Below, one piece after another: positions 2,596-24,490 of a DNA stretch of 64,000 nucleotides (position 1 is the first letter of the stretch; each line of letters starts with the position of its first letter). The stretch is from NCBI RefSeq assembly GCF_036010325.1, contig NZ_CP108549.1, positions 5,270,001-5,334,000 of the forward strand. Direction: 5' to 3'. The notes beneath the pieces are model-generated. The model saw nothing but the letters and a program-made list of their open reading frames with translations. It ran no database searches and was not told the origin of the DNA. Origin of the DNA: Streptomyces sp. NBC_01210. GTDB lineage: Bacteria > Actinomycetota > Actinomycetes > Streptomycetales > Streptomycetaceae. Made by a program: the position numbers and the translations under genes.

Positions 2596-2628
2596 ACAGG
2601 CACTGAACCGAAGGATGGACGAACTGCC

Positions 2629-10048: not shown

Positions 10049-10528
10049 ATGACGGCCCCGTCCGGAGCCATTGCCCAGCGGCCCGCCAGGGCCAACCGAC
10101 GCGCCTGCCTCAGCTGCGGGTGCCACCTGAGCGCCTACAACGACGATGAGCTCTGCGCCGCCTGCACGCGCACGAGGGTCTCGCCTGACGAAGAACTGCC
10201 CCGGATACCCGAGCGGGTCTGGCAGGACCCCGAGGTGCGTCAGGCCCTGGCCGCCTTCGACTTCGGCCAAGTCAGCAAGCTCGTACGCCAACTGGGGTCC
10301 ATCCGGCAGGAGGATCTGGCCCAGCTCGCCGGTCTCAGCCAGGGCTTTCTGTCCATGCTCGAGTCCGGCGTCCGACGCCTCACCAGCATCGACCGGATCG
10401 TCGACTTCCTCGACGGCCTGAACGTCCCCGCCCACCTCGTGCAGATCCCGCGCCGTAGCACCATCGGACCCCCCGAGTGCGCTTCCCCGGCACTCGAACC
10501 GGACCTGCCCGGGCGACAGACTGTGTGA
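10049..10528 (+). CDS. XRE-family regulator with N-terminal zinc ribbon
   Basis: A 159-residue protein. Cys20, Cys23, Cys36 and Cys39 form a likely zinc ribbon (a fifth Cys is at 25), followed by a charged linker and a helix-turn-helix of the Cro/C1 type at about residues 78-130 (IRQEDLAQLAGLSQGFLSMLE). The last 25 residues are Pro-rich. It is probably a DNA-binding regulator, and its place directly upstream of the biosynthetic genes, in the same direction, suggests it controls them or itself. The start is ATG 10049 with a weak AGGTG-like site. It has no sensor domain that I can recognise. Confidence 0.85.
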   Translation: MTAPSGAIAQRPARANRRACLSCGCHLSAYNDDELCAACTRTRVSPDEELPRIPERVWQDPEVRQALAAFDFGQVSKLVRQLGSIRQEDLAQLAGLSQGFLSMLESGVRRLTSIDRIVDFLDGLNVPAHLVQIPRRSTIGPPECASPALEPDLPGRQTV

Positions 10529-10906
10529 TGGGTGCATGCTGGGCGCCGGTACGCCTGTGGGGCGGTCGGCGCCGAGCCGGGTGTGGAAGTTCCTGCCGAT
10601 CAGGCCAGGGACCGAACGAGGACCACATCGGATCGTCGATCGGAATTGTCTAATTCTGCCCGCTTCTCACCGCTGGGTGGAAAAAATGCCGCCGCGACTG
10701 CTCCCGAATCACCAATGTAGGCACACCGAGATGTCCATCTCATCGCGCATTCTATCGGCGAATTCACAGATTCTCGCCGGTTCAGCATCACACCTCTCGC
10801 TACGTCGCGCATTAACCCGGTTATATGCCAAGAGTCAGTACTCGCACTACACTTGACTGCGCGTCACAGAGATCGCGAGCAGGTCGACCAAGGGGCGACT
10901 TTCCAG
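10529..10906. other. 378-base low-GC interval before the biosynthetic operon
   Basis: GC content falls noticeably here. I see no long open frame consistent with Streptomyces codon use. The stretch is a likely location for the promoter of the biosynthetic operon: candidate elements are TTGACT near 10853 and an AT-rich patch TTATATG near 10820, but they are not spaced as a clear -35/-10 pair, so I do not place a promoter. Confidence 0.45.
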
Positions 10907-10993
10907 ATGACTATCCAAAACAAAATCGCCGAGCAGCTCGCGGATATCTGGGCTGCCGGGAGAGTTACCTCGTTCATACCGGATGTGCGATGA
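10907..10993 (+). CDS. Possible 28-residue peptide coupled to the aldo/keto reductase
   Basis: ATG 10907 opens a 28-codon frame (begins MTIQNKIAEQLADIW, ends FIPDVR) whose TGA overlaps the ATG of the next gene (ATGA at 10990-10993), the same junction type used between the other genes here. The upstream GGGGCGA-like bases could serve as a ribosome site. It could be a leader peptide, a small carrier or scaffold peptide, or the remnant of a longer gene. Nothing in the sequence shows a modification core (no Cys, few Ser/Thr), so I give no function. Confidence 0.4.
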   Translation: MTIQNKIAEQLADIWAAGRVTSFIPDVR

Positions 10994-11925
10994 CAGACAA
11001 TAAGCGAGACCCGCTCTCACTTCCTTTCTCTCAGGATGCCGAGACCCTGTGCATCGTTCTGGGTGGACGCTTCGGCGAGGAGCCGGAGCAGCTTTCCTTC
11101 GAGCGGCTGGAGCGTTTCTCCTCCGCCGGCGGGCAGTGGGTCGACACAGCCCACAGCTATGCGGACGGGCGCTCGGAGGAAATCATCGGAAAGTGGATGA
11201 GTACTCGTCCCGGCACGCTGCGGGTCATGGACAAGATCGGACATCCTTCGGCGGACGGTTCTCTCGATCTCACCGGCCGGAACCTCCGCAAGGAGGCCGA
11301 ACAGTCTTGCCGGCGGCTGCAGGTGCCCTCGCTCGACGTCGTGATGCTCCACAGGGACGATCCGGGGCGCACTGTGGAGGAACTGGTCGAGACACTGGTC
11401 GGTCTGGTGTCGTCAGGCCTGGCCGCACGTGTCGGGGTCTCCAACTGGCGGGCGGACCGCCTGGCGGAACTGGTTCCTCTCCTCGTAGCCGCTGGCCATG
11501 TCCCTGTGGTCAGCTATCAGTTCAGCCTCGCTGTACCGAGCCGACCCCTGTGGCCAGGAACGTTGCACGAGTGCGACGCGCTGCGCGCAGTCATCACGCA
11601 GCACGATCTGCCGCTCGTTGCCTGGGCGGGGCAGGCACGTGGATTCTTCGCCGGGGCCGGCGAGCCGGTCGGGCCCGGGGTGAGCGACCCGTTCGACACC
11701 CCGCGGAACAGGGAACGGCGGCGCCGGTGCCAGGCCGTCGCCCATGACCTCGGGGTCCGGCCCGAGACCGTCGCGCTGGCCTGGACCTTGCACCGACCGG
11801 GCGTCTGGCCAGTGATCGGGGCCCGCTCCGTGGACGAGGTGGATATTTCGATGGCCGCATCCTCGCTCACGCTCGACGAGACGGTGGTCCAGTGGCTCAA
11901 GGCGGAGGACGGAAAGCACGCGTGA
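10990..11925 (+). CDS. Aldo/keto reductase
   Basis: A 311-residue NAD(P)H-dependent oxidoreductase with a TIM-barrel fold. The catalytic tetrad is in place: Asp52 and Tyr57 (VDTAHSYADGRSE), Lys82 (MDKIG) and His121 (VVMLHRDDP). The C-terminal segment PVIGARSVDEVD matches the NADP-binding end of the family. It likely reduces a carbonyl on a sugar or cyclitol intermediate. ATG 10990 overlaps the stop of the small upstream frame, and its own stop overlaps GTG 11922 of the first glycosyltransferase, so the operon is coupled. The N-terminal 20 residues are atypical for the family (no early strand motif), so a slightly different start is possible. Confidence 0.9.
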   Translation: MTDNKRDPLSLPFSQDAETLCIVLGGRFGEEPEQLSFERLERFSSAGGQWVDTAHSYADGRSEEIIGKWMSTRPGTLRVMDKIGHPSADGSLDLTGRNLRKEAEQSCRRLQVPSLDVVMLHRDDPGRTVEELVETLVGLVSSGLAARVGVSNWRADRLAELVPLLVAAGHVPVVSYQFSLAVPSRPLWPGTLHECDALRAVITQHDLPLVAWAGQARGFFAGAGEPVGPGVSDPFDTPRNRERRRRCQAVAHDLGVRPETVALAWTLHRPGVWPVIGARSVDEVDISMAASSLTLDETVVQWLKAEDGKHA

Positions 11926-13145
11926 GCCATTCCATCGAGAACCACACCTTCCTCCCAAGAGCCGAAGGGATCGACCCCACCATGCCCCTGACGGTCCTGC
12001 ATGTTCTCGTTCCCGAGCCTCCGGGTGAAGTAGGAGGCGCAGACCTGCATGTGATTGACCTGGCCGCCCAGCAAGTGGCCGACGGGCATCGCGCGATGGT
12101 CGTGGAACGAGGCTCGACCGAATTTGCCGACCGCGTGCGTGAGACGGGATTGGATGTCGTTTCGGCCACGGGACACTCCTTCCTGAGTGCCGTTCGGCTT
12201 CTTGCACAGAAGATCACCGCGACGGACGCCGACATCATCCACGCTCACGGATATGACGCGGACTACTGGGCTGCGGCCGCTCGGATTCTGTACCCCAGGG
12301 TCTTTTCCGGGCGTCCTCTGGTCCTCACCCAGCATGGAGTGGTTGACGACACCCTCTGGCACAAGAGCAAGACCGCTCTCGACGTGCTGTGCGCCAGGAC
12401 CGCGGACGGCATCATCGCGACGGCGGAGAACCTTGTTCCCAGGATGCGGAAATGGTGTCCCCGTGGAAGCGTCGCCTACATCCCCAACGGTGTGCGGCAG
12501 CTGCCGCGGGTGCCGAAGCAGGAGGCCCGCGTATCCCTGGCGGAACGGTACGGGGTCCCGCTCGCGGGGGAGTTGATCGCCTACGTCGGGCGGCTGTCCG
12601 AGGAGAAGGCGCCGGAGCGTGTGCTGACTTTGGTGGCGCAGGCACGGGCGACGGGGCGGAAAGTCCATGCCCTCGTGGTCGGCAGTGGTCCCATGGACCA
12701 GCAACTCAAGTCACAGGCAGACGAGTTGGGCATCGCGGACGCTGTGACCTTCACCGGCATCGTGCGCGATGTGGAGACGGTGTACGGGGCCATCGATGCG
12801 TTCGTCCTGCTCTCCTGCACGGAAACGACATCACGGGTGGTCATTGAGGCCATGACGTCCGGGATCCCCGTGGTCGCGTCCGCCGTCGGGGGGATCCCTC
12901 AGCTCCTGGACTCCGGAGAGTGCGGCGTCCTGGTCCCGTCCGGTGACGAGAACGCGGCGCTCGCCGGACTGATCCGGGTTCTCGACGCTCCGGAGCCGTA
13001 CATAGAGCCTGCACGTCATCGGGCCTTGAGCTCCTTCGCAATCTCGACGATGGGCTCCGGAGTCGAGGACTTCTACTCGACCCTGCTGGCACGTCACCAG
13101 CGCGGCGTCCGGACTCGGAGCGCGACCTCCGGCACTGAGGGGTGA
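11922..13145 (+). CDS. GT4 family glycosyltransferase (MshA/BshA-like architecture)
   Basis: A GT-B fold retaining glycosyltransferase of 407 residues from GTG 11922, or 387 from ATG 11982; both have usable ribosome sites. The N-terminal Rossmann domain carries a glycine loop (GEVGGADLH), and the C-terminal domain has the EX7E nucleotide-sugar motif in ETTSRVVIE followed by PVVASAVGGIPQLL. The same plan is seen in MshA and BshA, which start mycothiol and bacillithiol synthesis by moving GlcNAc from UDP-GlcNAc to an acceptor. Donor and acceptor here are unknown. It is coupled to the reductase before it and to the second glycosyltransferase after it. Confidence 0.9.
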   Translation: MSHSIENHTFLPRAEGIDPTMPLTVLHVLVPEPPGEVGGADLHVIDLAAQQVADGHRAMVVERGSTEFADRVRETGLDVVSATGHSFLSAVRLLAQKITATDADIIHAHGYDADYWAAAARILYPRVFSGRPLVLTQHGVVDDTLWHKSKTALDVLCARTADGIIATAENLVPRMRKWCPRGSVAYIPNGVRQLPRVPKQEARVSLAERYGVPLAGELIAYVGRLSEEKAPERVLTLVAQARATGRKVHALVVGSGPMDQQLKSQADELGIADAVTFTGIVRDVETVYGAIDAFVLLSCTETTSRVVIEAMTSGIPVVASAVGGIPQLLDSGECGVLVPSGDENAALAGLIRVLDAPEPYIEPARHRALSSFAISTMGSGVEDFYSTLLARHQRGVRTRSATSGTEG

Positions 13146-13150
13146 AGGCC

Positions 13151-14323
13151 ATGCCATCACGAACGCGTCGTCTCCGGGCCCTCTACCTCACCCACCACGC
13201 ACCATGGCCCGTCACCAGTGGCGGGCGGCTCAGGGACGCCGCACTGGTGCCCCGCCTGGCGCAGGGTGCCGACCTGGAAGTGTGGGCGGTGTCCCGTCAA
13301 GGCGACGAGGACCGGGCTGCCGTCGCTGATCACGCCGACGGAACGGTCGTGCGCGTCTTCGACGACGAAAGCACGCGTCACCCCTACCCGACCCGTGATT
13401 CCTGGGTGGCTCGCCGGTCGCTGGCCCGGGCAGCGGCAGAGCAGCCCGGCTTCGACGTCGTGCACGTCGAGGGGCACTACCTGTTCCATCTGCTTCCAGA
13501 GCAGCTCGCACGGCGCAGTGTCGTGGTGGAACACAATGTCGAGTCACACCTGATCGAGCAGCGCATGGGGTTGGGAGCACAGAGCCCTCAGCTACTCCAG
13601 GACCTGGCCACCGTACGCGCCTCGGAAGAGCACGTGTGGCGGACCGCCCGGCTCGTGCTGACCTTGTCAGACGAGGACATGCGACGCGTGTCCACGCGGG
13701 TCCCGGAGGCCAGGGTCCGCCGGGGCATGAATGGCGCCGATCATGTGCCGGCGTATCCGGCCCAGCCACGAAACCACAGTGCGCTCCTGGAGACCGCTCC
13801 ACGGATCTGCTTCCTCGCCAACTTCGCGTACCTGCCGAACCAGGACGCGCTCGACTGGCTCATCCGGTCCATATTTCCGCGAATCCAGAGCTACATCCCG
13901 GGCGCCGAACTGCTGCTGGCCGGATCGGGGTCGAAAGAGGCATTGCAGAAATACGGAAGCCCCATGGGAGTGAGGGCCCTCGGCTGGATCGATGATCTCT
14001 CGGACGTCTGGTCGACCGCGGACGTCATGGTGAGCCCCCTGCGTATCGGAGGCGGCGTCAAGGTGAAGATGATCGAATCCATACGCGGGGGCTGTCTCAC
14101 CGTTGCCACGACCCTGAGTATGGAGGGGCTGCCCCGGGCGGCGGATTCGGCCGTCGTGGTCAGGGACGACCCGGACGAGTTCGTCGAGGGTGTCGTGAGT
14201 CTGTGCAAGGACGACGACTTCCGCGCGCAGCGGGCGGCGAGCCTGCATCGCGTTCAAAAGGCATTGCCCAGCTGGTCCGATGCCGCGGCAGACCTGGTCA
14301 GCCACTGGTCCACCATTCACTGA
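13151..14323 (+). CDS. Second GT4-like glycosyltransferase
   Basis: A 390-residue GT-B glycosyltransferase. The N-terminal domain has the acceptor-side glycine loop PVTSGGRLRD. The C-terminal domain has PLRIGGGVKVKMIESI, the variant donor-binding motif found in many GT4 enzymes that lack a perfect EX7E, and an ICFLANFAYLPNQDA segment typical of the group. I prefer ATG 13151, with GAGGGG eight bases upstream, over GTG 13142, which would overlap the previous stop. Two consecutive glycosyltransferases suggest a product with at least two sugar or pseudosugar units. Confidence 0.88.
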   Translation: MPSRTRRLRALYLTHHAPWPVTSGGRLRDAALVPRLAQGADLEVWAVSRQGDEDRAAVADHADGTVVRVFDDESTRHPYPTRDSWVARRSLARAAAEQPGFDVVHVEGHYLFHLLPEQLARRSVVVEHNVESHLIEQRMGLGAQSPQLLQDLATVRASEEHVWRTARLVLTLSDEDMRRVSTRVPEARVRRGMNGADHVPAYPAQPRNHSALLETAPRICFLANFAYLPNQDALDWLIRSIFPRIQSYIPGAELLLAGSGSKEALQKYGSPMGVRALGWIDDLSDVWSTADVMVSPLRIGGGVKVKMIESIRGGCLTVATTLSMEGLPRAADSAVVVRDDPDEFVEGVVSLCKDDDFRAQRAASLHRVQKALPSWSDAAADLVSHWSTIH

Positions 14324-14341
14324 GCCAACAGGAGCACGTTC

Positions 14342-15574
14342 ATGACCAGCAGTGCCTATACCGTCCCCTATCTCCCGACCGGCAGTGTGTACGGCCCGGC
14401 GGAAATGGATGCCCTCACCCGCTTGCTCCAATCCGGTGCCAAGCTGTCCTGCGGGCCGGAGCGTGACGCCTTTGAGCAGGAATTTGCGGCGTACGCCGGA
14501 GTGGATCACGCACTCTCGCTCACCAATGCCACCATTGCCCTGGAGCTGGCTACTTATCTGCTCGACCTCCAGCCCGGGGACGAGGTCATAGCGGCGACCC
14601 AGACCTATCAGGCGAACGTCACGCCTCTGCTCGCGCTGCCGGTCAAGGTTCGTTTCTGCGATATCGACCCCAACAGTCTCAATATTTCTCCGGACGCTCT
14701 TGCCGGCCTCGTCAACGACCGCACGAAGGCCATATACCTGGTCCATCACGGCGGCATGCCGGCCGACATGGAGCCGATTCTGAAGATCGCCGCCGAGAAC
14801 AATCTGACGATTGTGGAGGACTGTGCTCACGCGCTGGGCACCAAGTACCACGGGCGGACCCCCGGCACCTTCGGTCACCTCGGATGCTGGAGTTTTCAGT
14901 CGTACAAGAACATCTCCACTCTTGGTGAGGGCGGAATGCTCACCCTGTCCAACCCCGAGTGGGCCGAGCGAGTCGGCCGTGTGCGCTCGATCGAACCGGA
15001 TGCCCGCTTCACCTCGCGTGCGCAACTCGCCCTCGGTGACTACACGCTGCCTGCCGACGGGATCGAGCGGCACGAGAAGAACTCCTATGCGGAAGACTGC
15101 GTCGAACTTCGTCATCCCGGCACGAACTCGACGCTGAGTGAACCGGCCGCCGCCGTGGGGCGCGTCCAACTTCGCAATCTCGACGCGTTCGTCGCACGTC
15201 GGCGCGCGATCGCTGAGCGCCTGGACGCAGGTCTGAAGGAGATCCCGGGGATCCGTGTGCAGACCAGGGAAGCCGGGATCGAGAGCTCCCACCACCTCTA
15301 CACGTGCTTCCTCGATTCCAGCACGGGGATAGACCGGGACGCCTTCATCAAGCGGCTCGACGAGCAGGGGATTCACATCCAGCTCCGGTACTTCCCCATC
15401 CATCTGCTGCCCGAGTGGCGGCAGCGCGGGAACGGCCTTGGCGAGTGCCCGGTCGCCGAACGCATCTGGTTCCATGAGCAGATCAATCTGCCCATCTATC
15501 CCCAACTCGAGGACTGGCAGGTCGATTTCATGGTCGAGACTGTGGCCCGGACCATGGGCGACTTCTCTCGGTGA
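14342..15574 (+). CDS. DegT/DnrJ/EryC1/StrS-family PLP aminotransferase
   Basis: A 410-residue PLP enzyme of the sugar aminotransferase family. The PLP Schiff-base lysine is Lys189 in SYKNISTLGEGGM, Asp160 in EDCAHA is placed to hold the pyridine nitrogen, and the C-terminal half carries the RYFPIHLLPEW segment typical of the family. Such enzymes convert keto-sugars or keto-cyclitols to amino sugars using Gln, Glu or Asp as donor. The aldo/keto reductase and glycosyltransferases beside it fit a deoxy- or amino-sugar pathway. The ribosome site is CAGGAG nine bases before ATG 14342, and its stop overlaps the start of the broken PIG-L gene. Confidence 0.93.
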   Translation: MTSSAYTVPYLPTGSVYGPAEMDALTRLLQSGAKLSCGPERDAFEQEFAAYAGVDHALSLTNATIALELATYLLDLQPGDEVIAATQTYQANVTPLLALPVKVRFCDIDPNSLNISPDALAGLVNDRTKAIYLVHHGGMPADMEPILKIAAENNLTIVEDCAHALGTKYHGRTPGTFGHLGCWSFQSYKNISTLGEGGMLTLSNPEWAERVGRVRSIEPDARFTSRAQLALGDYTLPADGIERHEKNSYAEDCVELRHPGTNSTLSEPAAAVGRVQLRNLDAFVARRRAIAERLDAGLKEIPGIRVQTREAGIESSHHLYTCFLDSSTGIDRDAFIKRLDEQGIHIQLRYFPIHLLPEWRQRGNGLGECPVAERIWFHEQINLPIYPQLEDWQVDFMVETVARTMGDFSR

Positions 15575-16109
15575 CCGAGACGGAGGTGTCGGGGGATGCG
15601 GCGGTACTCGCGGTATCGCCGCACCCTGACGACGCGGTCATGGCAGAGGCCCAACACTCGCCGCCCACGCCGAGTCCCCTGCGCCCTTTTGGCGACGCAT
15701 GGCTGCTGCCCGCTCCACGTTCCACGTTTGCCCCGGATCTCCCGGACGCGACGGAACTCGAGAACGTCATTGCTGACCGTCCCGCGTCCCTGATCCGCAG
15801 AGACCGCCCGGCGGAGCTCTGGACGGGGCAGCTGTCGGCGAGCACATCGATCACCGTCTGATGAGAAGGGCGACCGACAAGGCCTGTCAGGGATCCGGCT
15901 CGGGGCTGCGCCTTTGGGAGGGGCTGCCGCACCACCTGGGCACCGACAGGCCGGTACTCAGTCACCCACCCTGGGCGATGGCCCGCGCCGACGCCTCGTA
16001 CAGGGAGAAGAACAGGGACTACGGCGTGCAGGAGCTTCTCCGGGACGTGAAGCGGACGCGTGATTCGACAACGCGACCAAGGAAATCGATTTCAAAGGGG
16101 TACGCATGA
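15571..16109 (+). pseudogene. Broken PIG-L family deacetylase
   Basis: The first frame (GTG 15571, GTGA overlap with the aminotransferase) begins like a LmbE/PIG-L deacetylase with AVSPHPDDAVM, the metal-binding HPDD motif. It then loses similarity and ends at 15861. The second conserved motif, AAVGEHIDHRLMRRAT, is in another frame from about 15822 and continues as WEGLPHH and YREKNRDYGVQELL to the stop at 16109. So there is at least one frameshift near 15835, and the middle is too short by perhaps 60-100 codons. An intact paralog with the same two motifs lies at 22243-23094. The old C-terminus still overlaps the next gene (ATGA), showing this was once a working operon member. Confidence 0.72.
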
Positions 16110-17785
16110 GTGAGCAGGACGTATGGGTTGCCGGCCTCAACCACGGAGCACACGACTCGTCCGCGGCGCTGCTGCGGAACGGTCAACTGGTTGCGGTCGT
16201 GGAGCAGGAGCGCTTCTCGCGGCGGAAAAGGGCGATGGACCAGCCTCCCGTCGAGGCGCTTGAGTGGTGCTTGAACCACGCGGGGATCACCCTGTCCGAC
16301 CTTTCCGCGATAGGTCTGGGAAGCGACCACGACGTCCTCGCCCAGTGGCTGGGGCTGACTCCTGAAGAGCGCAGGACGGAGCTGGATCTCGACAACCCGG
16401 AACGTCTCTTCCCGAAGAGCGTCTTCGGCGCGTCCGAGCTCCCGCCGGTCGTGCCGGTCCGCCATCACCTGGCGCACGCCGCCAGCGCGTACTGGGCCAG
16501 CGGCTACGAGGAATCCGCAGTCCTCGTTATCGACAACCGAGGCGAGGACGAGTCCACCACCCTGGCCTACGCCACGCCCGATGGCATAGAAACGCTCGAG
16601 TCCTACCCCATCGAACACTCCCTGGGACTCTTCTACCGAATCGCTACGCAATACGTTGGTCTGTACACCAAGGACGGCAACGCCGGCAAGCTCATGGGGC
16701 TGGCCTCGTACGGAAAGCCCCTCTACGAGGTCGGGCTGAGCCACACCCCGGACGGCCCCCGCTGGAAGGGTGTTCCGTCCGCGACCACGACCGGACGCGC
16801 ACTGCCGCCGGAGCGCACCCGGCAGCTGCTGGCCTTCCTGGAGGAACAAGCCTTCCCGTACACCGTGGGTCTGAAGGACGACATCTTCTCCTACATCGAC
16901 TTCGCGGCTTCGGTACAGACTGCGCTGGAGGACACCATCCTGGGTCTGCTGCGTGACCTCAAGGAGCGCACAGGCTCCGCCAACCTGTGCCTCGCCGGCG
17001 GTGTGGCCCTCAACTGCACTGCGAACGGGCGCATCGCCAAGGAGGCTCTGTTCGACAACGTCTACATCCAGCCCATGGCCCACGATGCCGGCTGCGCCCT
17101 CGGAGCCGCGTACGAGGCTACTCGTGAAGTGGCACCGCAGTCCTTCCGGCCCGATGTGATGGACCATGCGCTCTGGGGACCGGAGTACGGGGACGACGAG
17201 ATTCTGGCCGCCCTGGACAGCCGAGGTCTCCGGGGTGAGCGGCTCACTCCGGACGAGTTGGTCTCACAGGTGGCGTCGGTCATCGCTCAGGGGGGCATCG
17301 TTGCATGGCACCAGGGCAGGGCGGAGGCCGGGCCGCGGGCGCTCGGAGGGCGCAGCCTGCTGGGTGATCCCCGGCACCGCTCGACGCTCGTGCGGCTGAA
17401 CACCATCAAGAAGCGGGAGATGTGGCGCCCGCTGGCACCCAGTGTGCTTGCCGACAGCTACGAGAAGTACTTCGACGGCACACCGAACCCGTTCATGATC
17501 ATGGCGGCCGAGGTGCGTCCCGAAGTGCGGTCACTCATTCCCGCGGTGGTCCATGTGGACGGCTCCGCACGACCCCAGGCAGTGACCCGTGAGGCGAACC
17601 CTCGCTATGCGGCCCTTCTCGAGGCATTCGCACGGGAGTCCGGTATCCCGATTCTCGTCAATACGTCCTTCAACACCGCCGGCATGCCGCTGGTGAACCG
17701 CCCGGAGGAGTCGGTGGACACGTTCCTGGACACGGATATCGATGTGCTGGCGATCGGGTCCTTCCTGGTGCGCCGCCCCCAGTAG
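16106..17785 (+). CDS. NodU/CmcH/TobZ-type O-carbamoyltransferase
   Basis: A 559-residue carbamoyltransferase. The N-terminal Kae1-like domain starts with GLNHGAHDSSAAL, has EQERFSRRK, and carries the metal/catalytic histidines in RHHLAHAASAYW (His120, His121, His124), LAGGVALNC and MAHDAGCALGAA. The C-terminal YrdC-like half has AGPRALGGRSLL and VNTSFN. These enzymes use carbamoyl phosphate and ATP to make carbamoyl-AMP and transfer the carbamoyl group to a hydroxyl of an antibiotic or nodulation factor. The start ATG 16106 has AAGGGG seven bases upstream. It ends the forward operon, and a strong hairpin follows at 17807-17836. Acceptor unknown. Confidence 0.95.
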   Translation: MSEQDVWVAGLNHGAHDSSAALLRNGQLVAVVEQERFSRRKRAMDQPPVEALEWCLNHAGITLSDLSAIGLGSDHDVLAQWLGLTPEERRTELDLDNPERLFPKSVFGASELPPVVPVRHHLAHAASAYWASGYEESAVLVIDNRGEDESTTLAYATPDGIETLESYPIEHSLGLFYRIATQYVGLYTKDGNAGKLMGLASYGKPLYEVGLSHTPDGPRWKGVPSATTTGRALPPERTRQLLAFLEEQAFPYTVGLKDDIFSYIDFAASVQTALEDTILGLLRDLKERTGSANLCLAGGVALNCTANGRIAKEALFDNVYIQPMAHDAGCALGAAYEATREVAPQSFRPDVMDHALWGPEYGDDEILAALDSRGLRGERLTPDELVSQVASVIAQGGIVAWHQGRAEAGPRALGGRSLLGDPRHRSTLVRLNTIKKREMWRPLAPSVLADSYEKYFDGTPNPFMIMAAEVRPEVRSLIPAVVHVDGSARPQAVTREANPRYAALLEAFARESGIPILVNTSFNTAGMPLVNRPEESVDTFLDTDIDVLAIGSFLVRRPQ

Positions 17786-17806
17786 GGAAATGCCCCGGCA
17801 GCAGTT

Positions 17807-17836
17807 GCGGTGGCTGGTGCGGACACCAGCCACCGC
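17807..17836. terminator. Bidirectional hairpin terminator
   Basis: GCGGTGGCTGGTG at 17807-17819 pairs perfectly with CACCAGCCACCGC at 17824-17836 across a four-base CGGA loop. It lies between the converging carbamoyltransferase and methyltransferase genes and probably ends both transcripts. There is no U-tract, as is common in Streptomyces. Confidence 0.8.
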
Positions 17837-17862
17837 TCTGCGCGGACCACCGGCCGGGACGG

Positions 17863-19014
17863 TCACACCGGCCGGGACCGGTACTCCTGCCATGCCCCGA
17901 CTATGCGCATGATCAAGCTGGTGTCCCCTCGGAGTTCGAGCTTGCCACGGTAGTGCAGCTCCCAGAGGTCGGAGCGGCCCTCCAGCAGGGACACCAGGTC
18001 GCCGTTCGTGATGAGGGCGACACTGTCGAAACCGGTGTACGAGGAATCGTCAATGGCGTGCGGGCGGACGGTGACGCCGGCATCGGTGAGCACGACCTGC
18101 CAGGCGGACTTGGCATCCGGTTCTGCGAACAGCACGTCCCCATGACGTTCGCGTGCCACCGGTCCCAGCGCGTCGGGCAGCTCTTCGCTCAGCGCCCTGC
18201 TCAGATCGTCGACCGCGCTCGTGTGCGGAAACCCGACTTCCGTGCCCGGTCTCGATCCCACGGGCTTCGTGAGCTGCAGGGCCCCGAAGGAGTACTGCAG
18301 GACGCGCAGGTCGTGACCGTCCATGGTGCTGACGGGAAGTTTCACCGGTCCATCGGCGGCGAGCTCCGCGCCCGAGGGAGGTGTGGGAAGTTCACCGACG
18401 AGCGACAGCCCCGATGCGGAGATCAGCTCCAGCAGCCCCGGCACCGAGACAACGGGGTCGCTCACGCCCCTCGCGCCGTCGCCGTAGTCGAAAGTGAGCA
18501 GCAGGGTCCCGCCGTCAACCAGTACCCGTCGCGCCTCCTGCCAGAAGAGCCGCCGTCCCCACGTGGTCAAGCCCTCGTAGACGGAGACGGCGATGAGGCA
18601 GCTGAATGAGTTGTCGGGGAACGGCCAGGGCTCGTGTCCGTTGTAGAGCGACGACTTCAGCAGCCGGGAGACACCCGCCCGTTCTGCTCCCCGCTGCACG
18701 TCCTCATGCACGGCAGGGTCGACGTCCAGGACGTGGGTTTCGATACCCGAAGCGGCCATCATGTAACCCACAATGCTATTCCCTCCGCCGAATTCGAGAA
18801 CCGGCCCGGAAATCTCTCCGGACGCCCTTGTTCGATCAAGCTCGAGAAGTACGTGCACGGGTTCCCATATTCGCGCGAAGTCATGACGCAGCGGGATTCC
18901 GACCCCCTCGAGCTTCTCCTCGAGGGCCAGCATGTCACGCTTCTTCCGGTCGTACTCAGGCCTCTCGAGGAAATCAGCAAAACGGCGCACGATGACGTTG
19001 AATGAATCGGCCAT
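17863..19014 (-). CDS. SAM-dependent methyltransferase with C-terminal extension
   Basis: A 383-residue protein. The class I methyltransferase core spans about residues 45-215, with motif I VLEFGGG (residues 72-78), the acidic motif II in LDVDP (Asp97/Asp99), and a later DYGDG after a VLVDGGTLLLTF strand. The remaining 170 residues are an unrecognised domain. ATG at 19014 is preferred to the longer open frame because the upstream part runs into the neighbouring gene and is not protein-like. It is the last gene of a leftward group with the PhyH oxygenase and the tRNA-synthetase-like gene. Substrate unknown; N-, O- or C-methylation cannot be told from sequence. Confidence 0.85.
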   Translation of the reverse strand: MADSFNVIVRRFADFLERPEYDRKKRDMLALEEKLEGVGIPLRHDFARIWEPVHVLLELDRTRASGEISGPVLEFGGGNSIVGYMMAASGIETHVLDVDPAVHEDVQRGAERAGVSRLLKSSLYNGHEPWPFPDNSFSCLIAVSVYEGLTTWGRRLFWQEARRVLVDGGTLLLTFDYGDGARGVSDPVVSVPGLLELISASGLSLVGELPTPPSGAELAADGPVKLPVSTMDGHDLRVLQYSFGALQLTKPVGSRPGTEVGFPHTSAVDDLSRALSEELPDALGPVARERHGDVLFAEPDAKSAWQVVLTDAGVTVRPHAIDDSSYTGFDSVALITNGDLVSLLEGRSDLWELHYRGKLELRGDTSLIMRIVGAWQEYRSRPV

Positions 19015-19040
19015 CAGGCCCTCCCGATATGGAGCATGAA

Positions 19041-19838
19041 TTACCAACCGAACAGTTCCTGGACCGCGGCGGGCCAGGCTTCGAGCGTGGTGGCAGGGGC
19101 GGTCACCGATTCGTGGTACCGCCATTTCAGCCAGTTCCTCTTGTAGACCAGAGAGAGCATGCTCCGGGTTTGCGAGGAGTTGTTCGGCATGCCCCGGTGC
19201 CACATACGCACATCCCGAATGACAAGGGACCCGGCCGGCGCATTGAGTCTTCGGGAACTCAGCGCCTCGGCTCTCGCCTCGACCGGAAATTCAGATTCCT
19301 CGGCCCAATGCGAGTCCATCACGAGATGACTTCCCGGCCACACCTCAGTACTGCCGGTCTCGGACGTGAAGTCGCTCAACAGGACGTTGACAACAAGGGA
19401 GAACGGGGGAGTGGGTACGCTCATCTCCCCGTCGAACAGATGCGCATTGTCTCTGTGAATCCGCTGAGCGTCCGATCCTGGTCGGGCGAGGTTCGAATTG
19501 TAGTAGAGGATGCGCAGATCGTTCCCCAAGATCTCACGCATGCAATGCATCGCCAGGGGATTGGCGACCAGTTCCGTGGACTTGAAAATTCCGCGCAAGG
19601 GGGGCTGGATCTGATAGTGGCCATTCCCGCTGTGGCTCCGCTGCAGCCTGTCCGTATTACCCGATGAATGCAGTTCCTCGAACAGCGCCATGTATTCACC
19701 GCGGAGGGCCTTGACCAGGTCGGAGTTCAGCGCCCCTTCGAGCACGACATAGCCGGCATCACGGATATGCATCACGCTCTCTGCGAGATGGGCCGCCGAC
19801 AGCTTCCCCTCGGACAGCTCGGCAGAGGTGATTATCAT
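19041..19838 (-). CDS. PhyH-type Fe(II)/2-oxoglutarate oxygenase
   Basis: A 265-residue member of the phytanoyl-CoA dioxygenase family. The iron triad is visible: His128 and Asp130 (HRDNAH) and His214 (MWHRGMPNN), with Arg225 placed to bind 2-oxoglutarate. The segment VNVLLSDFTSETGSTEVWPGSH is characteristic. These enzymes hydroxylate or otherwise oxidise small molecules, and many act in natural product pathways. ATG 19838 follows GGGGAGA. It lies 104 bases after the tRNA-synthetase-like gene and 26 before the methyltransferase. A fragment of a second PhyH gene is at 23194-23340. Confidence 0.9.
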   Translation of the reverse strand: MIITSAELSEGKLSAAHLAESVMHIRDAGYVVLEGALNSDLVKALRGEYMALFEELHSSGNTDRLQRSHSGNGHYQIQPPLRGIFKSTELVANPLAMHCMREILGNDLRILYYNSNLARPGSDAQRIHRDNAHLFDGEMSVPTPPFSLVVNVLLSDFTSETGSTEVWPGSHLVMDSHWAEESEFPVEARAEALSSRRLNAPAGSLVIRDVRMWHRGMPNNSSQTRSMLSLVYKRNWLKWRYHESVTAPATTLEAWPAAVQELFGW

Positions 19839-19942
19839 CTGTTCTCCCCATTGCCTGTTCGGGTTCCACACATGCGGATGCCGGCATGGACGGCCTGCGA
19901 GAGGCCGTCCATGCCGGCGGCTCCGGAAAGCCGGGCGACTGC

Positions 19943-20860
19943 TTAGACGATGGCGTTGCCCTCGGTGATGACCGCCGGCCACTTCTTCGGGTCGAAGCCG
20001 TGCTGGAAAAGGAAGCCGATGACGAGCCGGTTGAGGCCCACCCCGCAGCAGCCGCTCCAGATCTCTTCGCCGGTGGTGCTGGTGATGCCGAAGGACTCCA
20101 GATGGTGGCTGCCTTCGATGGTGCATCCCGCGATCTCGTCGAAGTCCGCCGCAGTCAGCTCGCCCGGGGACTTGGCCTCACGCACACGCAGCTCGATGTC
20201 GATCACGGGCACTTCGCTCGGTACCTTCGCGTCGAGCGTGCGCTGGGTGACCTCGGGGATAGGCATGCAGCCCTCCCCGACTACCGTCTGAGTGGAGAGC
20301 CCGAGCTCCAAGAGCAGAGAGGTGACGCTGCCCAGGACCTCCTCCCGGATCTGAGTCGTCGCCTCAGGGGTGCCGAGCCAGACATGCTCGAACCGCAGGA
20401 ACTCCTTGGCGCGGAAGACACCGTCGAGTTCCTCCTCGCGCTCCTTCCGCCAGGTCCAGCCGCCCAGCGTCTCCACGACCTTCAGTGGAAGGTCCGTGAC
20501 ATCGATCGAGCTGTCCCGGAGGGAATGGTAGAAGGGCAGGCACTGCACCGGGTCGAGCACCTGCTCCCCGCCGTCCACCCTCCACAGAAGACCCGGCTTG
20601 AACTGGCTCAGCTTGAAGTCGTCGAGCGCCTGGGCGGGAATCATCCGAGGGAACGTGTGCTCGTTGAACCCCATGCCTGTTGCACGCTCACGCAAAAGGT
20701 TCTGGAGCCGACGGACCAGGGCGGTCCATTCCGCTCCGTAAACATATTGCCCGACACCGAACGACTTGATCCATTTCCTGTCCAATGCCTCCTGTGTTAC
20801 GTTCCCGCCCACCGGATCGACATCGACCAGCTTCAGGTCAACAACCTCAAAGAGTTCCAT
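19943..20860 (-). CDS. Orphan class II tRNA-synthetase-like ligase (SerRS / aa:carrier-protein ligase superfamily)
   Basis: A 305-residue protein consisting only of a class II catalytic core. Motif 2 is at about 150-158 (FRAKEFLRFE) with WLGTPE after it, and motif 3 is GVGLNR at 273-278. Cys107 (VQCLPF), Glu158 and Cys271/272 (SGCCGVG) match the Cys/Glu/Cys zinc set known in archaeal-type SerRS and in bacterial amino acid:[carrier protein] ligases. There is no N-terminal coiled-coil tRNA-binding arm, and the length fits the carrier-protein ligases (about 320). It should activate an amino acid with ATP and transfer it to something other than tRNA: an amine, a carrier or a peptide. No carrier protein gene is visible nearby. 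The amino acid cannot be read from the sequence. Confidence 0.85.
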   Translation of the reverse strand: MELFEVVDLKLVDVDPVGGNVTQEALDRKWIKSFGVGQYVYGAEWTALVRRLQNLLRERATGMGFNEHTFPRMIPAQALDDFKLSQFKPGLLWRVDGGEQVLDPVQCLPFYHSLRDSSIDVTDLPLKVVETLGGWTWRKEREEELDGVFRAKEFLRFEHVWLGTPEATTQIREEVLGSVTSLLLELGLSTQTVVGEGCMPIPEVTQRTLDAKVPSEVPVIDIELRVREAKSPGELTAADFDEIAGCTIEGSHHLESFGITSTTGEEIWSGCCGVGLNRLVIGFLFQHGFDPKKWPAVITEGNAIV

Positions 20861-21029
20861 TGTCTACCTCTCTGGCATTCTGATGCATGTTTTTTCGAAA
20901 GGCCTGCCGGTCAGGATAACCCACCAGCGATCTTTCCGCATATAACTGGGCTAATTGACTGATTGCATTCGATACCGGCATCCTGATTCGCACGCTTCTT
21001 TAAACGTTCGCTGCGACGGGGTGAATGCT
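20861..21029. promoter_or_regulatory. AT-rich divergent promoter region
   Basis: This 169-base gap separates the leftward ligase-oxygenase-methyltransferase group from the rightward GNAT/PIG-L group and is markedly richer in A and T than its surroundings (CATATAAC near 20940, TTGACT near 20955, a T-run near 20890). It is the only sensible place for promoters of both groups. Exact -10/-35 pairs cannot be assigned with confidence. Confidence 0.4.
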
Positions 21030-22058
21030 GTGGACATTGCAAGCGAGGCCATCTCCGCTCGTGCCGTGGAGTCATCGGCACGGCCGATGCTCCGCGGGCG
21101 TTCGGCGATTGATTTTGTTCAGAATGCGTGGCCGCAACTCACGCCGACCGAGTTTGTCTCGGCCGAGTGGATCCTTTCCGTATGGGAATTTCTCCCGGAG
21201 CTGGGTTCCCCTGCGGTTGTCGTATCTGGGAGCCATGCGGGATGGGGTGCGATCGCACTGACCGAGTCGCGGGGCGATGCAGGCCGCAGTCTTGTGGTCG
21301 CCGGCGCGCCGCTCGTCGACGAACACGAAGTGGTCACCTCCGGTCCCGTCGACGTCGACGCCGTTTCGCGTGATCTCGTGCACATCCTCCGACAGGAGGC
21401 GAAAACCGGCACAGCGGTGCAGCTGGACTGTGCCGTCCCGGACAGCCACCTGGCCCGCGCTCTGGCAGCGCACAGGGCACATTGGTCCCTTGAACCGGAA
21501 CCGGCTCCCGTCATCGATCTCTCCGCGCTGTCCGTCAACGCACTCCGGCACTCGAAGCGGCTGAATCGCCTGGCTCGTACCGGTCCGGTCACTTTCGACG
21601 TGATCGAAGGGCACCGGCTGACCGCTGCCGTGGGAACTTCTTTTGTCGAACGGCGGCTGATTTCCTGGGAAACACGCGGGCGCATCCACGAGCTGCCGGA
21701 CGTCGAGCGCTCTCCTGCCTTTCCGGTATTTCTCGGGGAGATGGTGCACCGGATGGCGGTCGACAGGAATGCGCGCCTGCATGTCGTCAGGGCCGGCGGC
21801 CGGACCGTGGCAGAAGACCTCATGCTCGGGCCGGTCAGTGATCCGCTCCTCTACATGCGGAGCTACGATCCGGCGTTCTCCGCGTGCAGCCCCGGGCGCA
21901 TTCTTCTCGAGCACACCCTGCTCGGCATGTCCGGATCGGCACTCCGGCGCCTGCGCACCGGCAGGGGTGACGAGGCCTACAAGCTGGCCGCAGGAGCGGA
22001 CCGGTCCTGTGTCATCACTGCCGTAGTGGGGCCGCACGGTTCAGGGCAGACGAAATGA
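21030..22058 (+). CDS. CelD/BcsL-type GNAT acyltransferase
   Basis: A protein of about 342 residues whose C-terminal half resembles the Acetyltransf_6 (CelD/BcsL) branch of the GNAT fold: a middle segment LRHSKRLNRL, then LHVVRAGGRTVAEDLML, YMRSYDPAFSACSPGRILLEH and RRLRTGRGDEAYK. This branch is related to FemX-type aminoacyl transferases, so acyl-CoA or an activated amino acid are both possible donors. The frame is open from TTG 20955; I prefer GTG 21030, with GGGGTGA about six bases upstream. It is divergent from the tRNA-synthetase-like gene, and the pairing of ligase and GNAT recalls MshC/MshD. Confidence 0.78.
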   Translation: MDIASEAISARAVESSARPMLRGRSAIDFVQNAWPQLTPTEFVSAEWILSVWEFLPELGSPAVVVSGSHAGWGAIALTESRGDAGRSLVVAGAPLVDEHEVVTSGPVDVDAVSRDLVHILRQEAKTGTAVQLDCAVPDSHLARALAAHRAHWSLEPEPAPVIDLSALSVNALRHSKRLNRLARTGPVTFDVIEGHRLTAAVGTSFVERRLISWETRGRIHELPDVERSPAFPVFLGEMVHRMAVDRNARLHVVRAGGRTVAEDLMLGPVSDPLLYMRSYDPAFSACSPGRILLEHTLLGMSGSALRRLRTGRGDEAYKLAAGADRSCVITAVVGPHGSGQTK

Positions 22059-22242
22059 TCCGGCCGTTCGGCCTGTTCGATCAGCACTTGATGAAGGAGT
22101 ACGACGGTGTCGCACGCTCACGCTCGTTCCGGACCTCCGGCAGCTCATCATGAACTCTCGCGTGAGGTGGGGACGGCTCGAGAAGCCCTCGCCGCCTTCC
22201 GGCGCACCCGGCTCCGCGATGGCTGCTGAAGGGCGGGAGCGC

Positions 22243-23094
22243 ATGGCCGGGAACACTGCAAACCCCTTCACTGTTGTCACACGGCTGGTGGTGCTGTCGC
22301 CGCACCTCGACGACACCGCCCTCTCCTGCGGCGCTGCCACGGCCGCTGCTGCGTCGGCGGGCACGGACGTGGTTTCGGTCACCGTCTTCGACGGCGAGCC
22401 GCAGGGCCAGCTGTCGGCCGCTGCCCGCGAGTTCCATCACGCCTGCGGCCTCGGCGACGACGCCATGTCCCACCGTCGCGCGGAGGACGACGCGGCGTTG
22501 GCCCGGCTCGGTGTCGTCCCGGTGCGGCTGGGACTGGCCGAAGCGCTGTACCGGCGCGATGCGGCCGGCGACCCTCGCTATCCGGGAGGCCAGGACATAT
22601 TCGGTCCGGGTTTCGGCCCCGGGTGCGGGACGGCCGCAGATGACCCGGGCGGTGACGCGGCTGCCCCCGACCCGTACGGCCTCGAGCCGGATGTCGTCGC
22701 TGAGGTCGCGCGGCGGCTCACCAGCCTGCCGGCCGTGCGGGAGGCGGAGCTGCTGCTGGCGCCGCTCGCCGTCGGCGGCCACGTCGACCACCGCATCACA
22801 GCGGCTGCCGCCCGGCAGCTGGATCGCCCGCTGCTGTGGTACGAGGACATCCCCTACGCGTTGTTCGACCGCTGTCGCGGCTGGCAGAAGACCCTGCGGC
22901 CCGCCGGACCGTTCGTGCACCGGGCGAGCACCGCGGACTGGGCGGCGAAGCTCGACGCGATCGACTGCTACGTCTCCCAGCACCCGGTGCTGTGGGAGGA
23001 GCCCGACCGGCGCAGGCAGGTGCTCACCGCGTACGGCACCTCGGTCGGAGCGGACGCCGCGCCGGCCGAGCGGTACTGGAGAGACCGGGGCTGA
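22243..23094 (+). CDS. PIG-L/LmbE family N-deacetylase (intact)
   Basis: A 283-residue zinc-dependent deacetylase. His21, Asp23 and Asp24 lie in SPHLDDTAL, and His180, Asp182 and His183 in LAVGGHVDHR, the two metal and catalytic motifs of the LmbE/PIG-L fold used by MshB, BshB and antibiotic GlcNAc deacetylases. It would remove an N-acyl group from an amino sugar, exposing the amine for later acylation. The frame is open from 22150, but I favour ATG 22243, with GAAGGG nine bases upstream. A Gly/Asp/Pro-rich insert (about 108-146) is unusual. A broken paralog lies at 15571-16109, so this copy may have taken over. Confidence 0.87.
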   Translation: MAGNTANPFTVVTRLVVLSPHLDDTALSCGAATAAAASAGTDVVSVTVFDGEPQGQLSAAAREFHHACGLGDDAMSHRRAEDDAALARLGVVPVRLGLAEALYRRDAAGDPRYPGGQDIFGPGFGPGCGTAADDPGGDAAAPDPYGLEPDVVAEVARRLTSLPAVREAELLLAPLAVGGHVDHRITAAAARQLDRPLLWYEDIPYALFDRCRGWQKTLRPAGPFVHRASTADWAAKLDAIDCYVSQHPVLWEEPDRRRQVLTAYGTSVGADAAPAERYWRDRG

Positions 23095-23365: not shown

Positions 23366-24490
23366 TTACCGCGAGAATCGGCCGACGGAGCGACGGAAGG
23401 TGCTCATGCCCACGAGCAGGGGCTTTTCAGGCTCGTGCGCCGATCGGCGACCGGCAGCCCGCTTCATTCCCGCCGGTCCGGCGGCTCGTCGGCCGCCCAC
23501 GAGGACCGTGGCCGGGTGACCGTTCACGAGGATCTCATGGGTCGCATCGATGACGAAGGAAACGTCTTCCATGCTTTCACGGAAAAGGGGAGCGCTTCTC
23601 CGCGCACAGAGTAGTACGAACCTTCCGGTCTTGGGGTTGAGGGCCCGGTCGAAGGATCCGGAGACGGCGCGCGTGAACTCCGGGTACGGCATGGCCACGT
23701 CCTCGTGTTCCCCCCATGGGGGGTCGGTGACGATGACATCGACTGTTCCGTCCGCGATCGACGGAAGGGTGAGGGCGTCATCGGCAAGAAAGCGTACGCG
23801 CCGGTCGCCCGTCAGTTCGCTCGGGAATTCCTTCCGATGCGAGCTCAACTCCGTATCGGAGTAGAGGATCTCACGGGCAGGCATATCCAGCCGGGCAAGG
23901 ACGAACGACCCACTGCCCGCGAAGGGGTCGAGGTAGACGTCCTGAGGCGTGGGGTCCGATGCCAGCACGAACATCGACGACAGTTCGTAGGAGACCGCCC
24001 CACGGGCCTTCTTCGGGCGCGCCGCTTTGGGGAGCCTCGCGCAGAACAGCAGTTCGCGCAGGTCAAGGCGGCCGATGACCCAGTACTCCTCACAAAGGCC
24101 CCGCGGCTCCACGCGGCTACCCGTGCCGGCGGCCACGGTCCGCTCGATATCCCTTTTCGCTCCCTGCTCGATCGAAGACAGTTCGCCGTCGATGTGCGCC
24201 ATCACGCGAAATCCACGAGAGCGGTCGGGGAGGGAAGGGAAGGGCTTTTCACCCAGCGTCCGAGAGAGCTGCCTTACGCTCTGATCGACACTGCTCCGCC
24301 GCGTTTTCGCGATGACCACGAATGCATTCTTGACAAAGGGAATCGACGACACTCGATCCGCTTTCGAGGTCGAGTCGAAGATCATCGCGCTGTCGTCTTG
24401 GTAGTGAATGCTGAAATTTTCGACGTAATGCGAGACGGCATCGGCGACGAGTTCACTGGTCCCGGCTGGATATTGAATGAAATAGCGCAC
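23366..24490 (-). CDS. THUMP-domain RNA methyltransferase (UPF0020/Trm-like)
   Basis: A 374-residue protein. The N-terminal 150 residues fit a THUMP-type RNA-binding region (RGFRVMAHIDGE at about 92-103). The methyltransferase domain has RPKKARGAVSYELSSM, motif I DPFAGSGSF (188-196) and catalytic motif IV DPPWGEHE from Asp256, the D/N-PPW/Y type used for N-methylation of RNA bases, usually guanine N2. The last 40 residues are basic and Gly/Arg-rich. It is read from GTG 24490 with no strong ribosome site. It converges on the island's PIG-L/PhyH end, so it may belong to the island as a resistance or RNA-modifying gene. Target (tRNA or rRNA) unknown. Confidence 0.85.
   Translation of the reverse strand: MRYFIQYPAGTSELVADAVSHYVENFSIHYQDDSAMIFDSTSKADRVSSIPFVKNAFVVIAKTRRSSVDQSVRQLSRTLGEKPFPSLPDRSRGFRVMAHIDGELSSIEQGAKRDIERTVAAGTGSRVEPRGLCEEYWVIGRLDLRELLFCARLPKAARPKKARGAVSYELSSMFVLASDPTPQDVYLDPFAGSGSFVLARLDMPAREILYSDTELSSHRKEFPSELTGDRRVRFLADDALTLPSIADGTVDVIVTDPPWGEHEDVAMPYPEFTRAVSGSFDRALNPKTGRFVLLCARRSAPLFRESMEDVSFVIDATHEILVNGHPATVLVGGRRAAGPAGMKRAAGRRSAHEPEKPLLVGMSTFRRSVGRFSR

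Follow-up and report, generated by a model that had tools for sequence, protein, structure and literature searches.

A putative Streptomyces gene cluster for a carbamoylated, aminoacylated amino-oligosaccharide that encodes a stand-alone seryl-tRNA synthetase-type ligase

Background

What might be made by a set of genes that combines glycosyltransferases and a deacetylase with an enzyme resembling an aminoacyl-tRNA synthetase? This question is raised by an island at 10990-23094 of the window, that is, the whole stretch of 64,000 nucleotides from Streptomyces sp. NBC_01210 that we analysed. A preliminary description had likened its enzymes to MshA-MshD of the mycothiol pathway and had proposed an aminoacylated, carbamoylated amino sugar as the product. 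In our reading, to which we give a probability of roughly 0.55, the island was acquired horizontally and directs the biosynthesis of a small amino-oligosaccharide that is both carbamoylated and aminoacylated.

Results

Gene content and location

According to Pfam, the island encodes an aldo/keto reductase (AKR), two GT4 glycosyltransferases (GT4a and GT4b), a DegT aminotransferase, a carbamoyltransferase, a methyltransferase, a PhyH oxygenase, a class II ligase, a GNAT and a PIG-L deacetylase (Table 1). The enzyme types named in the preliminary description are all present close to where it placed them, and the ligase does belong to class II and not, as MshC, to class I. Several gene starts are internal start codons that we picked (for example, the open frame of GT4a begins at 11892). 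The plus-strand ORFs 17953-18609, 18606-18995, 19002-19667, 19886-20962 and 23705-24742 were rejected as genes; they are domain-free, and the domains lie on the opposite strand. The regulator directly upstream of the island may or may not belong to the cluster.

Table 1. Features in and around the island (window positions)
Feature	Position	Strand	Evidence and remarks
HTH_3/HTH_31 regulator	10049..10528	+	PF01381 1.7e-07
Aldo/keto reductase (AKR)	10990..11925	+	PF00248 4.5e-41
GT4 glycosyltransferase a (GT4a)	11982..13145	+	PF00534 1e-32; internal-ATG start
GT4 glycosyltransferase b (GT4b)	13142..14323	+	PF13692 3.9e-20
DegT/DnrJ/EryC1/StrS sugar aminotransferase	14342..15574	+	PF01041 2.9e-92
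Second PIG-L deacetylase, broken remnant	about 15571..15953	+	pieces matching the L010 PIG-L
NodU/TobZ-type O-carbamoyltransferase	16106..17785	+	PF02543; PF16861 5.6e-63
SAM methyltransferase, weak SCP2-like C-terminus	17863..19014	-	PF08241 9.8e-07, PF02036 0.0074; internal-ATG start
PhyH-type Fe(II)/2-oxoglutarate oxygenase	19041..19838	-	PF05721 6.1e-19; internal-ATG start
Stand-alone type-2 SerRS-core class II ligase, 305 aa	19943..20860	-	PF00587 2.5e-7
Double-GNAT-fold (aminoacyl or acyl) transferase, predicted	about 21021..22058	+	PF13480 2.9e-17
PIG-L type N-deacetylase, intact	22150..23094	+	PF02585 3.4e-13
UPF0020-type methyltransferase	23366..24490	-	PF01170 8.8e-11

An accessory segment that follows tRNA-Thr(CGT) holds the island, with conjugation-type genes adjoining. 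As a right-hand attachment repeat the window yields just 11-12-base matches, and the island DNA matched no plasmid DNA. Single genes have relatives on plasmids, namely the carbamoyltransferase (49.5% identity in Agrobacterium and 46% in Moellerella, both within different gene sets) and the PIG-L protein (two records, 28-31%). Within the island we recognised no nucleotide-sugar, cyclitol or DOS-type gene that would point to the sugars or the acceptor.

Conservation and rarity

The gene set is a conserved unit. In an actinobacterial MAG (locus L010) eight of these genes lie inside about 10 kb, and Nocardia asiatica (locus L015) has seven, the carbamoyltransferase not being among them (no match at E 1e-4). 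Both loci combine the ligase and the GNAT with both GT4s, PIG-L, DegT and AKR, and ligase and GNAT co-occur in all three loci that carry the GT4/PIG-L set. This agrees with the view of a single pathway island and contradicts the possibility, raised in the preliminary description, that ligase and GNAT are never conserved together with the glycosyltransferases. The identities to L010 and L015, respectively, are highest for DegT (71.0% and 56.9%), followed by GT4a (56.2% and 39.7%), AKR (54.6% and 44.4%), GT4b (50.6% and 35.5%) and the intact PIG-L (34.3% and 38.3%); the carbamoyltransferase is 71.7% identical to that of L010. The GNATs of the three clusters share just 23-31% pairwise identity, so that their function may vary between clusters. 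The SAM methyltransferase and PhyH were found in neither locus.

The gene order is GT4b-DegT-PIGL-CarbT-GNAT in L010 and, in a related arrangement, GT4b-DegT-broken PIGL-CarbT, then GNAT-PIGL in the island, the PIG-L remnant occupying the position of the L010 gene. Its pieces match residues 1-25 (60%), 102-145 (36%) and 148-189 (45%) of the L010 protein; they are spread over more than one frame, the middle is absent, and the longest frame has no Pfam match.

The set is rare. Among 392 genomes of the genus that we sampled, four had the ligase, and in Nocardia the only match among 150 genomes was L015 itself. Most of 59 homologues of the ligase come from metagenomic sources. We also inspected DegT-anchored neighbourhoods in 7 of the 24 other genomes that matched: the 19-kb surroundings of these homologues (about 51% identical) contained no further cluster gene at E 1e-6, and in one of the seven (the strain of locus L012) the ligase lies right at the edge of the examined stretch. 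Since two further actinobacteria have the set, while the DegT homologues lack such neighbours, we regard it as more than a chance assembly.

Sugar-building and tailoring enzymes

The best PDB matches of the DegT enzyme and the carbamoyltransferase are TlmJ (5.5e-55) and TobZ (8.1e-106), respectively. The carbamoyltransferase has both Carbam_trans_N (165.7 bits) and Carbam_trans_C (212 bits) and stays below the NodU equivalog cut-off (177.9 bits, cut-off 1000); DegT stays below that of VioD (20.6 bits, cut-off 390.9), and our scan of the island genes revealed no further PLP enzyme. GT4a is closest to BshA in the PDB (6.3e-16), and the intact PIG-L matches the teicoplanin deacetylase Orf2 (3e-19).

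The strict correspondence with mycothiol did not hold up. GT4a scores 72.2 bits against MshA (cut-off 462.5) and GT4b does not match that model; PIG-L, although its domain is present, scores 20.5 bits against Mca (cut-off 277). MshC itself is encoded elsewhere in the genome (678 bits, cut-off 485, at C1:1838505-1839728), with four model matches genome-wide and none in the window. A second mycothiol-like thiol pathway would have the same succession of enzymes (GT4, PIG-L, synthetase-like ligase, double GNAT) but would use a class II ligase that is nearest to serine enzymes, and it has no place for the carbamoyltransferase, DegT and AKR. We consider it very improbable.

Could the island serve to modify a polysaccharide or glycolipid of the cell surface and make no secreted small molecule? 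Enzymes of the PF13480 and DegT families are frequent in polysaccharide loci, the sole NCBIfam match of GT4b is an exosortase-linked stp1 glycosyltransferase (below the cut-off of that model), and no transporter was recognised among the ORFs scanned (9.7-24.5 kb). On the other hand, the genes scanned include no flippase, polymerase or priming transferase, the surroundings are an accessory segment next to conjugation-type genes, an ABC transporter pair is present at the related locus L012, and the window encodes a distantly EmtA-like methyltransferase. Taken together, a surface glycan seems improbable to us.

The latter, UPF0020-type methyltransferase has a counterpart next to the Nocardia cluster (L015 1474-2475, 43.6% identity) and was absent from all 40 relatives searched at E <= 1e-10. 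Its best NCBIfam model is the EmtA 23S rRNA methyltransferase, which is not reached (36.8 bits, cut-off 625). From sequence, this hints at a cluster-linked candidate gene for ribosome self-protection.

The ligase

The ligase corresponds to the catalytic core of a type-2 seryl-tRNA synthetase (SerRS), with three zinc ligands and two motif arginines retained. It has no tRNA-binding domain: its alignment to 3w3s starts at residue 176 of the latter, and the 26 relatives that we found in archaea carry 182-210 extra N-terminal residues. It reaches neither of the two type-2 SerRS models (161 bits, cut-off 611; 131 bits, cut-off 490). A cut-down relative of archaeal SerRS, it may be a new kind of amide-bond maker. 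Viral origin was considered and rejected, as 20 viral stretches matched a pattern and none encodes a relative.

Archaeal SerRS and the amino acid:[carrier protein] ligases are lineages with this core. The latter (for example, Bll0957 of Bradyrhizobium) share with our enzyme the zinc site and the missing tRNA-binding domain, and one could imagine that it loads a carrier encoded elsewhere, which the GNAT would then unload. Yet the ligase is far nearer to type-2 SerRS than to Bll0957 (5.4e-52 versus 2.3e-08), and it scores 50.2 bits against the carrier ligase model (cut-off 357). In the tree, a branch of 1.82 (support 100/100) separates 12 archaeal and four carrier-type sequences from the rest, a separation to be read with caution as long branches meet there; two further carrier-like sequences sit on very long branches, and two bacterial ones (P0076 and L016) do not join the main bacterial group. 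In both carrier-type loci that we examined (one annotated as such, one as a hypothetical protein), there is a carrier gene at a distance of two genes. The window contains none of the 61 PP-binding matches of the genome, the nearest of which (C1:5481953) is about 190 kb from the island, and the sole DSL-like motif in 9.4-25.5 kb is internal to a methyltransferase. In our view, a carrier-dependent role is quite unlikely.

The ligase lineage is also found in sugar contexts where no GNAT of the island type was seen. Heptose-type genes lie near the ligase in L012 (the locus on which Pfam was run for this purpose), the GT4 and the HAD-like frame of L012 recur in L011 and L013, and at L014 and L016 there are relatives of the carbamoyltransferase. 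A large ORF of L012 and its counterpart in L011 encode an alpha-1,3-glucanase-like protein (Pfam). Tentatively, and with less than even confidence, we place the enzyme in a third lineage of the type-2 SerRS core, namely tRNA- and carrier-independent amino acid:amino-sugar ligases that would act as class II counterparts of MshC in several actinobacterial amino-sugar or heptose clusters.

Upstream of the ligases of L011-L013 there are open frames of 204-214 residues, which we rejected as a tRNA-binding domain: Pfam finds the core alone in L011 and L012, the GC content by codon position, measured in L011, does not fit coding sequence, and another frame in this region resembles a HAD phosphatase by eye.

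The GNAT and the route of aminoacyl transfer

The GNAT has a predicted double-GNAT fold whose nearest structures are Sba18/Sbb17, FemX and MprF; this predicted fold is nearer to FemX and the BD-12 synthases than to MshD, which lends the mycothiol comparison no support. Sba18/Sbb17 are aminoacyl-tRNA-dependent synthases crystallised with streptothrisamine, an amino sugar, and share 11-12% identity with the island protein. By sequence, all six GNAT members match PF13480, no FemAB model matches (FemAB_like reaches E 0.21 in just one of the six), and a PDB profile search gave no useful match. Lysine K321, a candidate counterpart of the catalytic Lys305 of FemX, is invariant in all six. The fold model makes the protein a candidate aminoacyl or acyl transferase.

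How would ligase and GNAT cooperate? MshC transfers directly, with a class I fold. The likeliest route, which we put a little below even odds, is that our ligase likewise transfers the aminoacyl group directly and that the FemX-fold GNAT adds a second aminoacyl or acyl group. In second place comes a relay, in which the ligase charges a tRNA (or a mini-acceptor) and the GNAT passes the aminoacyl group on to the sugar amine. It has precedents: according to published work, Orf11 in BD-12 moves an aminoacyl group from tRNA to a sugar amine, and valanimycin biosynthesis uses a dedicated SerRS paralogue, VlmL, together with the MprF/Fem-type GNAT VlmA (PMC2922099, PMC12945691, PMC10156733). The predicted GNAT fold and its linkage to the ligase also favour a relay. 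Against it stands the missing tRNA-binding domain; moreover, at the five further loci whose ligase is unbroken (L011-L014 and L016) no such GNAT was found within the available flanks. We regard the relay as rather unlikely.

Discussion

We established which enzyme families occur, that their frames are open and that their linkage is conserved, and we predicted the folds of ligase and GNAT; from this we infer the steps of the proposed pathway. GT4a and GT4b would build a di- or trisaccharide, one unit coming from an N-acetylated aminosugar nucleotide, and PIG-L would take off the acetyl group to give a free amine. A second amine could be installed or prepared at a keto position by AKR and DegT, and the TobZ-like enzyme would O-carbamoylate the product. 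With its zinc site kept, the ligase would adenylate a small amino acid, either Ser, Gly or Ala, and the aminoacyl group would finally be amide-linked to an amine of the sugar. Strain-specific tailoring may be the task of PhyH and the SCP2-type methyltransferase, and the UPF0020-type methyltransferase may protect the ribosome of the producer. The product is most likely a carbamoylated amino di- or trisaccharide with a small amino acid.

Several known systems resemble parts of this scheme. The streptothricin/BD-12 pathway has a glycosyltransferase, an N-acetyl-gulosamine deacetylase (in streptothricin of the PIG-L family), carbamoylated gulosamine and the Gly-tRNA-dependent transferase Orf11, and thus has in common with the island sugar transfer, deacetylation, carbamoylation and the aminoacylation of an amine that deacetylation has freed; its Sba18/Sbb17 are nearest in fold to the island GNAT. 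However, the latter is a distant PF13480 protein, the island adds the SerRS-core ligase, a second GT4, DegT and AKR, and no streptolidine (capreomycidine-type) synthase genes were recognised in it, DegT falling short of the VioD model. The tailoring of 2-DOS aminoglycosides uses KanF/KanE GT4s, PIG-L deacetylases, DegT aminotransferases and TobZ, and the island encodes GT4, PIG-L, DegT and TobZ-like enzymes as well. In the island, however, no 2-deoxystreptamine genes were recognised and the aminoacylation genes are extra. Valanimycin offers the pairing of a SerRS-type enzyme with an MprF/Fem-type GNAT, but the island synthetase is an archaeal-type core without tRNA-binding domain and its acceptor is probably a sugar amine. 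The carrier protein ligases differ in being less close to archaeal SerRS, and no carrier domain lies in the window.

In summary, the carbamoyltransferase, DegT and the pair of GT4s are accounted for by the comparison with aminoglycosides and streptothricin, but not by mycothiol. From the preliminary description, the pathway island and the aminoacylation of an amino sugar, which is the natural reading of the gene set, were retained; the specific Msh correspondence was not. It had also known of no described cluster with this set, and in the literature that we searched no paper on the cluster or on a SerRS-type amino-sugar ligase was recognised.

If our reading is true, it would add a route to sugar amide bonds that works without ribosome, NRPS or (perhaps) tRNA, with an archaeal-type translation enzyme stripped down for actinobacterial secondary metabolism. 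The cluster would be a rare, mobile one whose product, resembling aminoglycosides or streptothricin, is probably new, and the ligase would serve as a search handle, revealing sugar clusters that searches with glycosyltransferases or carbamoyltransferases would not single out.

Gene content and recurrence of the island

Reading frames and domain searches gave ten open genes in the island (10990-23094). All of the enzyme kinds named in the preliminary description are there, while the remnant of a second PIG-L and a UPF0020-type methyltransferase had been overlooked. Compared with the PIG-L of L010, a locus from an actinobacterial MAG, the remnant lacks its middle and its pieces are not in one frame; the L010 gene occupies the position in its cluster that the broken copy has in the window. 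The best solved relatives of the island DegT, carbamoyltransferase, PIG-L and GT4a are TlmJ, TobZ, the teicoplanin Orf2 deacetylase and BshA, respectively.

Features of the island and its surroundings (C1, host contig coordinates; otherwise window coordinates)
Feature	Position	Strand	Remark
tRNA-Thr(CGT) gene	C1:5256178-5256253		87 bases spanning 3' end and downstream flank repeated 1.2 kb further on (host stretch L052, 4178-5467)
TcpC, TcpE, AAA_10 (VirB4-type), NlpC/P60+SLT genes	261-8809		conjugation-type apparatus beside island
AKR, GT4a, GT4b, DegT aminotransferase, TobZ/NodU-type carbamoyltransferase	first block of island	plus
Remnant of second PIG-L	about 15571-15953		between DegT and carbamoyltransferase; three-piece match to L010 PIG-L
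Ligase, PhyH oxygenase, methyltransferase	middle block of island	minus
GNAT, PIG-L	last block of island	plus
PIG-L of last block	22150-23094	plus	intact, differing from broken copy
UPF0020-type methyltransferase	23366-24490	minus

A profile of the ligase (a stand-alone SerRS-core enzyme) matched 34 loci on genome contigs, 8 filed as bacterial (L010-L016 and L043) and 26 as archaeal. In L010 the ligase, AKR, GT4a, GNAT, carbamoyltransferase, PIG-L, DegT and GT4b lie together (2.1-11.5 kb), with 72% identity to the island for the carbamoyltransferase and 71% for DegT. L015, from Nocardia asiatica, holds AKR, GT4b, DegT, GT4a, ligase, GNAT and PIG-L (4.7-12.8 kb). It also has a GT2, a further methyltransferase and a HAD enzyme; no carbamoyltransferase match was found in this cluster. 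The L010 GNAT directly matches those of L015 (30.7%, 3.6e-20) and the window (34.5% over 148 residues, 3.1e-11). A GNAT profile made from these three and three database GNATs detected no additional GNAT in the 8 bacterial ligase loci.

Of nine ligase loci, the window included, three have relatives of the GNAT, the PIG-L and both GT4s, and four have a carbamoyltransferase relative (L014 and L016 at only ~32%). The DegT and AKR matches in L011-L013 and L016 (26-30%) appear to be ordinary family likeness; L012 has an additional DegT at 51.7%. As a control we took neighbourhoods of ~51% DegT homologues from seven of the 24 other matching genomes, and in none of them did another cluster gene lie within 19 kb; one (L083, from the L012 strain) stops at that strain's ligase. 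Judged by these comparisons, the island genes form one unit, and the earlier claim of a single island is borne out by the recurrence of ligase and GNAT with the GT4s and PIG-L in L010 and L015.

The ligase was found in 4/392 genomes sampled from the genus (the window's own and, apparently, those of L011-L013), in 1/396 from the phylum (the window's own) and in 1/150 from the genus of L015 (L015 itself). Homologues from Nocardia takedensis, Plantactinospora and Allocatelliglobosispora also came up when protein databases were searched. In the Streptomyces loci L011, L012 and L013 the same ligase lineage lies amid heptose-type genes, a set which may be septacidin/spicamycin-like; Pfam models, run on L012, identify SIS, GHMP kinase, Gfo/Idh, epimerase, UDP-sugar dehydrogenase, DegT, GT4 and an ABC transporter pair. 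In L011 and L012 there is also an alpha-1,3-glucanase-like gene nearby.

Genomic setting

The window covers C1:5270001-5334000 of a 9.2-Mb genome. The tRNA-Thr(CGT) site is an integration hotspot, and a similar pair of tRNA end and copy is seen in a relative, G015. From the tRNA region to the homologue of window 28.4 kb there are ~4 kb in G015 versus 42 kb in the host. A second relative, G009, is again similar to the window from 25347 on, but there the tRNA region is ~60 kb off, so this genome has other cargo at that place. Together with the conjugation-type neighbours (the TcpE match being slightly below the model cut-off), the hotspot and these comparisons indicate that the island lies in an accessory segment. 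GC content is 0.61-0.68 in the island and 0.69-0.74 at 25-37 kb; since it is low again at 41-45 kb (0.65-0.66), the island GC is weak evidence. Neither the right end of the segment nor an integrase was found. Beyond the segment, 30236-31951 (minus) encodes a family A DNA polymerase of 571 aa, with 80-84% DNA identity in G009 and G015.

Proposed pathway and known systems

The GT4s would assemble an oligosaccharide with an N-acetylhexosamine unit, the amine of which PIG-L would free; AKR and DegT may make a further amine from a ketone, and the carbamoyltransferase would cap a hydroxyl. Other carbamoyltransferase relatives lie on plasmids: in Agrobacterium (L075, 11956-21515; 49.5%) with a glycosyltransferase, a second carbamoyltransferase, an ABC transporter and a PhyH-type dioxygenase, and in Moellerella (L076, 11992-17937; 46%) with DUF6270, SIS, histidine phosphatase and HAD hydrolase, flanked by IS elements.

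A small amino acid would be activated to the adenylate by the ligase. A relay from ligase to GNAT is favoured by their constant pairing in the three clusters with PIG-L and GT4s. In five loci (L011-L014 and L016), on the other hand, the ligase is unbroken but the examined flanks contain no GNAT of this kind. As this suggests that the ligase can act without GNAT, direct ligation of the amino acid by the ligase would be our first choice.

Published work describes comparable systems. In BD-12 a Fem-like enzyme attaches glycine to the C2 amine of streptothrisamine, and carbamoylated gulosamine is part of the streptothricins (PMC10156733; PMC12945691); for this gulosamine, a title cited in the latter paper mentions a glycosyltransferase together with a deacetylase acting on N-acetyl-gulosamine (PMC12945691). 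In valanimycin an MprF-like enzyme works with a SerRS paralogue, and MshC is described as resembling a synthetase and coupling cysteine to glucosamine with apparently no need of tRNA (PMC2922099). Carrier-protein ligases are described as class II homologues in which the tRNA-binding domain has been lost (PMC9437257). The specific correspondence to mycothiol synthesis drawn in the preliminary description was not supported, as the island proteins fall below the tested cut-offs and the strain's own MshC is encoded outside the island.

A candidate self-protection gene

The UPF0020-type methyltransferase has a relative adjoining the Nocardia cluster (43.6% identity); a search of 40 other genomes yielded none at E <= 1e-10. 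In L043 (Micromonosporaceae MAG) a UPF0020-type methyltransferase gene (8426-9814) lies beside a broken ligase of the same lineage, in pieces (10001-10699). The top curated model for the window gene is the 23S rRNA methyltransferase EmtA, a distant match (36.8 bits versus a cut-off of 625). EmtA confers resistance to an oligosaccharide antibiotic, and on these grounds it is a fair guess that the gene protects the producer's own ribosome.
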